Assembly: GCF_001049755.1 (NCBI RefSeq) | Contig: NZ_CVLB01000001.1 | Span: 2,064,995 to 2,128,994, forward strand | Origin: Brachyspira suanatina | GTDB lineage: Bacteria > Spirochaetota > Brachyspiria > Brachyspirales > Brachyspiraceae | Direction of reading: 5' to 3' | Length of the DNA: 64,000 nt | Part shown: piece after piece, positions 46,417 through 48,885 of the stretch | Layout: every line of letters starts with the position of its first letter | Numbering within the stretch: the stretch's first letter is position 1 | Made by a program: the position numbers and the translations under genes | Notes under the pieces: generated by a model | What the model saw: the letters and a program-made list of their open reading frames with translations, nothing else | Database searches by the model: none | What the model was told of the DNA's origin: nothing

Positions 46417-46446
46417 AAAGCCAATAGCTTAATATTAAATTAAACT
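46417..46446. repeat. 30-bp direct repeat, left copy flanking the nuclease-STAND gene
   Basis: Starts AAAGCCAATAGCTTAATA and ends TAAATTAAACT, identical to 48850-48879. Unlike the right copy, it is not followed by the complementary CTATTGGC arm, so here the hairpin is incomplete. Confidence 0.9.
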
Positions 46447-46477
46447 GATAATATAATTAATAGTTTATTAAAACTTT

Positions 46478-48799
46478 TTATTTAAAATCTCTATCAAAAA
46501 TTATATCTATTGAATCCATATCATCATCAGGTATATAATCATCACCATATCTTTTATCAGAAGATTTATAATAATAATTATTTCTTAAAGCCTCGTAAAA
46601 AAACTCTTCTATATCATAGCTGTTTTCTATAGAAGAAATTAACTCTTCTTTATTACAATAAGAAACTATACTATTTATCTTTTCTATAATATCTGATAAT
46701 TCATCAATTACTGAAGATATATCTTTAGAGATAACACTAATATCAAAATTATCATTTAATTCTTCTAAATCATTTTTAAATATATAGTATTCAATTTCAT
46801 CATTTACTACTTTTTCAGAAAATTCACACATCTTTTCACAAAAAAAACTATCCAAAGAATCATAAATATCTTTATGAAATATTTCTTTTAAATGTTTTAT
46901 AAAATCATCAGGATAATTGAAATTATATTTCTTTTTAATTTTATACAAAATATTTATTATAGATAGACAATCAATATTTTGTAATATTTTATTAAAATTA
47001 TTAACTACTAAAAATACATCATTGAAATTATAAAAATCCCACAAAGTACTATTATATAATTTCATTATAAAAGATGAATATATATTTATTTTTATATTAT
47101 CTGAACTTTTTATAAAACAATCTTGAACAATACTAATAATATTTAAATCTTTTATATTAAATTCCAATATTAAAGAAAGTACTTCATAATATATATTTGT
47201 ATAACTTTTGAAAGTAAAAATGCTAGAATCATAAATTAAATTGATTATTTTTTCTTTAATAAAACATTCATCAGTTTTTTCATATAAATTTATATATTGT
47301 TCTATATAAACAGCATTATTTAATATATTCTTTATTTCATTTTCATTATATCTTAAATAGTTAAAAATATAATCATTAATAGATGGATTTAATACACTAA
47401 TATTTTTATTATTATTCTTATCTATATTTATTTTAAGAAGCGAATTTGATAATCTATTCAATGTACTATCAAAATTATTTATTGTTGTATCTATATTTTT
47501 TAATTCAAATAATCTTTTATTGAAAGATTCCTTTAATATATTTAAATCTATATAATTATTTGTAAGAGAATATATTGTATACATCATTATCCTATCAACG
47601 TTTTCAATTCTTTTTACAAATTCATTTTCCCATATTTTTGCTGGATTATTTAAATTATCAATAATAAAATTTACATATTCATTAGATTCAACATCTTTAT
47701 AATTTGAAGTTATATATTCTATTATTCTTGGATTATAATTATTATGATTTATTATTCTATAATAGTTTTTATTTTTTTTTATATTATTAAAATAACTTTT
47801 TGGAATATCTGAAAAATACATATGATTATACAATATTAGTGCCTTCTCATAATTACTAATTTCATTTAAATCTATTAAAACAGTGTCATTATCTTTTATA
47901 ATTTCATTAAATTCTATAAAAAAATTTTTTGCTTCATTCATAATTGTTATTCTAGTATTAAGTATTAATTTTTTATTACAAGTTTTTGAATGACTAATCA
48001 GCGTTTTCAATTCTTTAGCATAATTTTCTTTTAATTCTAAATAATGCTGTCCTAAAAAATCATCTATAAGTATTACTTCTTTATTTTTTCCTTTCAAAAT
48101 AGATTTTTTAATATCCTTAATACTACTATCTGATGAATATTTAACATTGTAATTTTTTTCAAGATAAAATAAAACTAACATTTTAGATAGTGTTGTCTTA
48201 CCAACACCAGGATCTCCAGTTATAATAACGACATGATTTTTATCTAATATATCAATAGATTTTTTATAAAAAGATGTTTGAACATATAAATGTTTTTCTT
48301 TTTTTATATCATCAATTAAATATTCACAATCTATTAAAATATTTTGATTATTTATTATTTGTAATATAGAACTAGAAGATAACCACAATTTATAGTGTCG
48401 TTCAACTATATCCGTATTTTCTTCTAATAATTTATTTATTTCAGATAGATCTATTATATTAGATGTATCTGACATATATAAAGAAAACATATTATATATA
48501 TTTTTTATATTATTAGGAGTAAGTGCTAGGCTAGTAACAATATAATATTTTTCAGGTTTCAATTTATTTATTTTGTCTAATTCTTTTTTCAGAGAGTTTA
48601 ATAAGGATGAATAAGTACTTCGGCAATAATGTTTTACTTGCACTATAATATTATTTTCTGTATAATAAGCTTGTATATCTATACCATCATCTTTACCTTT
48701 AGCATAGGTTCTCAATTTTATACCAAGTTTTTTTTCTAATATATCTCTAATTAGTAATTCAAACTCATAATCATTTAAATTCGTTAAATCATATGACAC
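46478..48799 (-). CDS. Mrr-like nuclease fused to STAND NTPase (candidate defence gene)
   Basis: 773 residues, GTG start with GAGG about 8 nt upstream. N-terminal restriction-endonuclease-like domain: FELLIRDILEKKLG, D38-G-I-D41 and Q54-V-K56, the acidic/Gln-x-Lys core of Mrr-type PD-(D/E)xK nucleases. Central P-loop NTPase: Walker A GDPGVGKTT at 195-203, Walker B VILIDD at 242-247, consistent with nSTAND3-type STAND proteins. The last ~450 residues are helical and Asn/Ile-rich, like the sensor regions of STAND ATPases. This plan is used by anti-phage sensors that activate a nuclease on recognising a phage protein. Single gene, no methylase; flanked by a 30-bp direct repeat and therefore probably a discrete insertion. 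Function inferred. Confidence 0.78.
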   Translation of the reverse strand: MSYDLTNLNDYEFELLIRDILEKKLGIKLRTYAKGKDDGIDIQAYYTENNIIVQVKHYCRSTYSSLLNSLKKELDKINKLKPEKYYIVTSLALTPNNIKNIYNMFSLYMSDTSNIIDLSEINKLLEENTDIVERHYKLWLSSSSILQIINNQNILIDCEYLIDDIKKEKHLYVQTSFYKKSIDILDKNHVVIITGDPGVGKTTLSKMLVLFYLEKNYNVKYSSDSSIKDIKKSILKGKNKEVILIDDFLGQHYLELKENYAKELKTLISHSKTCNKKLILNTRITIMNEAKNFFIEFNEIIKDNDTVLIDLNEISNYEKALILYNHMYFSDIPKSYFNNIKKNKNYYRIINHNNYNPRIIEYITSNYKDVESNEYVNFIIDNLNNPAKIWENEFVKRIENVDRIMMYTIYSLTNNYIDLNILKESFNKRLFELKNIDTTINNFDSTLNRLSNSLLKINIDKNNNKNISVLNPSINDYIFNYLRYNENEIKNILNNAVYIEQYINLYEKTDECFIKEKIINLIYDSSIFTFKSYTNIYYEVLSLILEFNIKDLNIISIVQDCFIKSSDNIKINIYSSFIMKLYNSTLWDFYNFNDVFLVVNNFNKILQNIDCLSIINILYKIKKKYNFNYPDDFIKHLKEIFHKDIYDSLDSFFCEKMCEFSEKVVNDEIEYYIFKNDLEELNDNFDISVISKDISSVIDELSDIIEKINSIVSYCNKEELISSIENSYDIEEFFYEALRNNYYYKSSDKRYGDDYIPDDDMDSIDIIFDRDFK

Positions 48800-48846
48800 A
48801 AATATTACCTCTTAATTTAATATTATATAAAATACTATTTTTTATA

Positions 48847-48885
48847 ATAAAAGCCAATAGCTTAATATTAAATTAAACTATTGGC
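48847..48885 (-). terminator. pckG terminator; contains right copy of 30-bp repeat
   Basis: GCCAATAG (48853-48860) pairs with CTATTGGC (48878-48885), with an inner TTAAT/ATTAA stem. On the minus strand it runs into TTTTATTAT. The segment 48850-48879 is identical to 46417-46446. Confidence 0.85.

Follow-up and report, generated by a model that had tools for sequence, protein, structure and literature searches.

How did a lone gene come to lie within the terminator of its neighbor, bracketed by two copies of part of that terminator, in the genome of Brachyspira suanatina? The question is raised by a 64,000-nucleotide stretch of this genome (contig NZ_CVLB01000001.1, positions 2,064,995 to 2,128,994; hereafter the window), in which a gene for a 773-residue protein joining an Mrr-like nuclease to a STAND nucleoside triphosphatase (NTPase) is found next to pckG. 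A preliminary description of the locus had proposed that this gene is a cassette inserted in the pckG terminator. Comparison with related genomes strongly supports the insertion, and the gene is probably a horizontally gained single-gene anti-phage sensor of the type catalogued as PDC-S73, a candidate single-gene family of the PADLOC database.

The repeats that bracket the gene, AAAAGCCAATAGCTTAATATTAAATTAAACT, are identical without mismatch (31/31) and thus one base pair longer than the 30 bp described previously. Shuffles of the window gave a chance expectation of no such match, and a 27-mer from the repeat, with up to 3 mismatches allowed, was found at these two places only in the 3.26-Mb genome. 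The right copy forms half of the pckG terminator hairpin, the sole terminator-like site found in the scanned stretch, which has a predicted stability of -17.9 kcal/mol (z -5.2 relative to shuffles) and a T tract on the minus strand. The left copy has kept the inner 7–8 bp of the stem and lost the outer arm, and its fold is no better than that of shuffled sequences. Both of these assignments agree with the preliminary description, as do the convergent orientation of pckG and the PepSY-like gene on the other side and the absence of an integrase: no recombinase-like gene was seen among the open reading frames listed between 40 and 54 kb of the window (read by eye). The repeats enclose one gene only, of 773 codons, with a GTG start 53 bp from the hairpin; promoter-like matches in the stretch were no commoner than in shuffles. 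Two other readings of the hairpin were tried and set aside: an integron-like attC site, for lack of matching core sites (judged by eye), and a family of mobile ends, because, apart from the cassette end, the sequence was found solely next to pckG.

To see the site in other genomes, the pckG 3' regions of 19 relatives were fetched and compared, together with that of G002, the only other genome of the genus set with an intact copy of the gene. Most regions extend 6 kb from pckG and those of G001 and G011 less, so that a larger element farther out would be missed. Of these 19 relatives, 16 have a hairpin of the pckG-terminator type next to pckG, and the other three (G001, G005, G021) have other sequences there. 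Two full hairpin matches occur only in B. suanatina (G000) and G002, and a second full match in none of the 19. In G008, the closest relative, the PepSY-like neighbor and the right flank match those of B. suanatina, and there is a single hairpin and no gene. In G002 the cassette also lies at the pckG terminator, but its left flank differs and carries an ankyrin gene; G015 shares this left flank, with a single hairpin and without the insert. The distance from repeat to repeat is 2433 bp in both carriers. At a variable position, the right repeat of G002 reads AAG, the host allele that G015 also has, and its left repeat reads AAA, the allele of the cassette; this places the exchange inside the repeat. 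Each carrier lineage therefore has a one-hairpin empty site with its own flanks, and these two occupied/empty pairs strongly support insertion at the pckG terminator, as originally proposed. A hotspot at which other repeat-bounded cassettes insert was not found, as a second hairpin copy was present only in the carrier lineages within 6 kb of pckG, the genes beside pckG in other relatives not having been scanned for defence families. At other insertions that distinguish the window from G008 and G012, the inspected junctions had short or imperfect AT-rich repeats only.

Several features suggest that the cassette moved between species. Synonymous divergence (dS) between B. suanatina and G002 is 0.11 for residues 1–155, 0.19 for residues 155–330 and 0.08 for residues 330–480, compared with 0.265 for the C-terminal part of pckG, and because the first 480 residues fall below the adjacent pckG end, horizontal movement is likely. 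Residues 560–640 have a dS of 0.10, with a ratio of nonsynonymous to synonymous divergence of 1.5 on few sites. The pckG-side edge of the cassette is 98.6% identical in the two carriers over 69 alignment columns, and the spacers between hairpin and pckG differ, each being lineage-specific. In the pckG tree G008, G004 and G012 group with B. suanatina, and all three are without the gene. Given the edge and dS pattern, the lineage-specific spacers and the geneless neighbors in the tree, gain in at least two lineages appears more likely than one old gain followed by many losses, and the insertion points to a recent gain between species. When pckG of B. suanatina was compared in 150-nt windows with that of G008, G012, G004 and G010, no foreign-looking stretch was detected near the terminator. 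Such a stretch would be the expected trace of a linear transfer that brought along a long pckG flank, unless the donor belonged to the same lineage.

Among 26 genomes of the genus the gene is intact in B. suanatina and G002, and a 102-residue C-terminal remnant is present in G022; among 296 genomes of the phylum, the two intact carriers alone matched PDC-S73 at E <= 1e-20. Seven distant relatives (743–782 aa, 23–26% identity) are all plasmid-borne, in Prosthecochloris, Rhizobium, Agrobacterium, Streptomyces, Leptospira, Pseudomonas and Phaeobacter. Among the proteins scanned, the PDC-S73 model was matched by five of these seven, by a 796-aa protein on a phage-labelled faecal contig and by the N-terminal piece of a split gene in Priestia. 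On its Priestia plasmid, the split gene has a 35-bp tandem array upstream (L112 1561–2365). A pattern scan of viral contigs found no relative of the protein.

Database searches agreed with the proposed domain plan. The nSTAND3 model (PF20720) matched at E 9e-40 (136 bits, cut-off 27.2) with the Walker A and B residues present, and Mrr_cat (PF04471) at E 2e-6 (28.2 bits, cut-off 21) with the D...QxK active site present. In an alignment of nine sequences D37, G39, D41, Q54, K56, D246-D247-F248, R283, N325-H326 and P357-R358 are invariant, as are G195, P197, G198, G200 and K201 of Walker A; D41 and K201, the nuclease and NTPase positions singled out beforehand, are thus conserved in distant relatives. 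The PADLOC model for PDC-S73 covers essentially the whole protein (465 bits, E 1.2e-139; residues 2–770 of 773 on positions 3–751 of the 752-position profile). By its sequence the gene is a fresh member of an already catalogued candidate defence family, and the family is not new. The 773-residue plan, for which novelty had been suggested, is shared by proteins of like length in Chlorobiota, Pseudomonadota, Actinomycetota and Leptospira; PDC-S73 was named in no paper found in our literature search. The proteins of the two carriers are 84% identical overall, at 68–74% in the C-terminal part and 90–96% elsewhere. A structure prediction made from two sequences had a mean predicted local distance difference test (pLDDT) score of 36.

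Taken together, these results are best accommodated by a model in which the cassette arrived with its own copy of the terminator sequence. Homologous recombination between that copy and the one at pckG, with both exchanges inside the roughly 31-bp terminator sequence, would leave the direct repeat behind. The incoming DNA could have been circular, or could have been brought in by the gene transfer agent of Brachyspira; this agent seems to package any genome region, with a capacity of 7.5 kb (PMC9662315), and is a plausible carrier. The protein combines an Mrr nuclease and an nSTAND3 NTPase with a variable C-terminal region, the putative sensor. Upon infection, the C-terminal region would bind a phage protein, the STAND module would assemble, and the nuclease would cut DNA and stop the infection. 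This division into C-terminal sensing and N-terminal nuclease action is proposed by likeness to STAND sensors such as Avs5; the fast-changing C-terminal part and the patchy presence of the gene fit the predicted role. It is conceivable, though rather doubtful, that the terminator of pckG serves as a fixed point of exchange through which a lone defence gene without a recombinase passes between Brachyspira species, using the cassette's terminator copy as its recombination sequence. A search of titles and abstracts turned up no case of a terminator as integration site that matches this one.

Among known systems, PDC-S73 itself is the closest, with its whole-length match to the Brachyspira protein, although none of seven loci checked elsewhere had direct repeats of at least 22 nt bracketing the gene (about 1.1–1.6 kb on either side). 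Avs4-type Mrr STAND sensors share the logic of nuclease, STAND module and sensor. Known Avs4-type sensors are, however, about twice as long as the Brachyspira protein. The PADLOC matches, taken up to E = 1, included no Avs model, no direct comparison with Avs4 proteins being made. The Aga proteins of PADLOC (Aga_TIR-PNTD1-PNTD2, Class I) match the N-terminal ~150 residues at 4e-32, but nothing past this part, and no partner gene was seen in the open reading frames adjoining the Brachyspira gene. Avs5 (AVAST type 5), a SIR2-nSTAND3-repeat sensor (PMC12931631), likewise has a central nSTAND3 domain and a variable C-terminal region; its effector is SIR2 in place of the Mrr nuclease. With a single gene between the repeats, the locus lacks the recombinase of its own that marks an integrative mobile element. 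As regards a transposon with a target-site duplication, there is no transposase, and the repeat is a native terminator and, at 31 bp, long for such a duplication; the listing of inverted repeats covered the region as a whole and was not aimed at the cassette ends.

Other histories of the locus can also be considered. Were the gene old in the genus, inherited vertically and lost many times, deletion between the 31-bp repeats would restore a single hairpin and yield exactly the empty sites observed, and the dS of some parts of the gene is indeed similar to that of pckG. On the pckG tree, read by eye, such a history would nevertheless require roughly six or more precise losses, each separate from the others, and divergence in the first 480 residues and at the cassette edge is lower than in the neighboring end of pckG; we regard it as quite improbable. 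Alternatively, the 31-bp repeats could be attachment sites, with the pckG terminator serving as attB for a site-specific recombinase encoded elsewhere. Use of the same site in two lineages, junctions that both lie within the repeat, and host sequence running up to the repeat on both sides are all in keeping with this possibility. On the other hand, no recombinase-like gene was seen in the cassette or among the open reading frames listed around it, integrases elsewhere in the genome not having been searched for; the hairpin sequence occurs in the genus genomes beside pckG only, cassette-end copies aside; and no viral contig contained the site by exact 19-mer. The apparent crossover positions also differ between G002 and G022, although later change could mimic this. 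Integration by such an enzyme seems unlikely. As to function, Mrr domains also occur in ordinary restriction enzymes and the anti-phage role is predicted from sequence, so the protein might instead be a modification-dependent or housekeeping nuclease. The match of the whole protein to a candidate defence family, the STAND module, the patchy presence, the fast C-terminal region and the plasmid-borne relatives all make this very improbable.

Several points weigh against the explanation that we favor, a PDC-S73-type sensor gained horizontally at the pckG terminator. The PADLOC candidate families (PDCs) are for the most part unvalidated (PMC12988326), and a stretch of 31 bp is short for ordinary homologous recombination. 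The genome of G002 was binned from a metagenome, with contamination of 7%, and its cassette is on a 4-kb contig. The dS values are not uniform, those for residues 480–560 (0.23) and 640–773 (0.27) being near the pckG value, and pckG over its full length has a dS of 0.19 between B. suanatina and G015; the case for transfer is thus built on certain parts of the gene and on spacers that are short. Finally, G022 carries the cassette 3' end together with a hairpin of its own (z -3.1), joined to a membrane-protein gene that has decayed (L003 1430–1850, L072); a divergent second hairpin copy directly abuts the end of the cassette. The decayed gene separates the remnant from the pckG hairpin, which simple insertion does not explain. 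Insertion into a terminator of the neighboring membrane gene was considered for G022 and rejected, as relatives show no such hairpin at that gene.

The locus shows the gain of a predicted single-gene immune sensor in clean natural pairs of before and after, with the exchange point marked by a conserved terminator and by neither a tRNA nor a known integrase site. Should the transfer be driven by terminator homology, scans for half-hairpin copies beside terminators could reveal similar repeat-bounded single genes.

Table 1. Features of the cassette locus, in window coordinates.
Feature	Position	Strand	Remarks
Gene for 773-aa Mrr nuclease-nSTAND3 protein	46478..48799	-	PADLOC family PDC-S73
Mrr_cat nuclease domain, residues 7-95	48515..48781	-	Pfam; D41, Q54, K56 invariant in 9 aligned sequences
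nSTAND3 NTPase domain, residues 172-329	47813..48286	-	Pfam; Walker A K201 and Walker B D246-D247 invariant
C-terminal putative helical sensor, residues 480-773	46481..47362	-	Fast-changing
Inserted unit (cassette plus one repeat)	46447..48879		2433 bp, as in G002; lacking in G008 and G015
Left direct repeat	46416..46446	+	31 bp; exact repeat; half of pckG terminator hairpin, outer pairing arm missing; weak fold
Right direct repeat	48849..48879	+	31 bp; exact repeat; inside intact pckG terminator
pckG rho-independent terminator hairpin	48853..48885	-	14-bp stem, 5-nt loop, T tract
PepSY-like gene, left flank	46153..46395	+	Also neighbors the empty site of G008
pckG, right flank	48912..50705	-	

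Elsewhere in the window, an intergenic element opening with ATATACCTAAACAACTATATTTTGTCA and having a related far end around AAAAAGTTGAATAAAAAAATTGACAAACTTAAAAATTTT is repeated at 11447–11700, 32424–32796, 43228–43250 (minus strand) and 50801–51065. At the first two of these places it corresponds to insertions of 0.2–0.3 kb relative to G012, and it has the look of a family of small non-coding repeats or mobile elements. A short GC-rich tandem repeat of GTGCG units lies at 9965–10059 in this AT-rich genome. Two adjacent ankyrin-repeat genes at 41435–44682 share several stretches that are 81–98% identical and thus look like a duplication.
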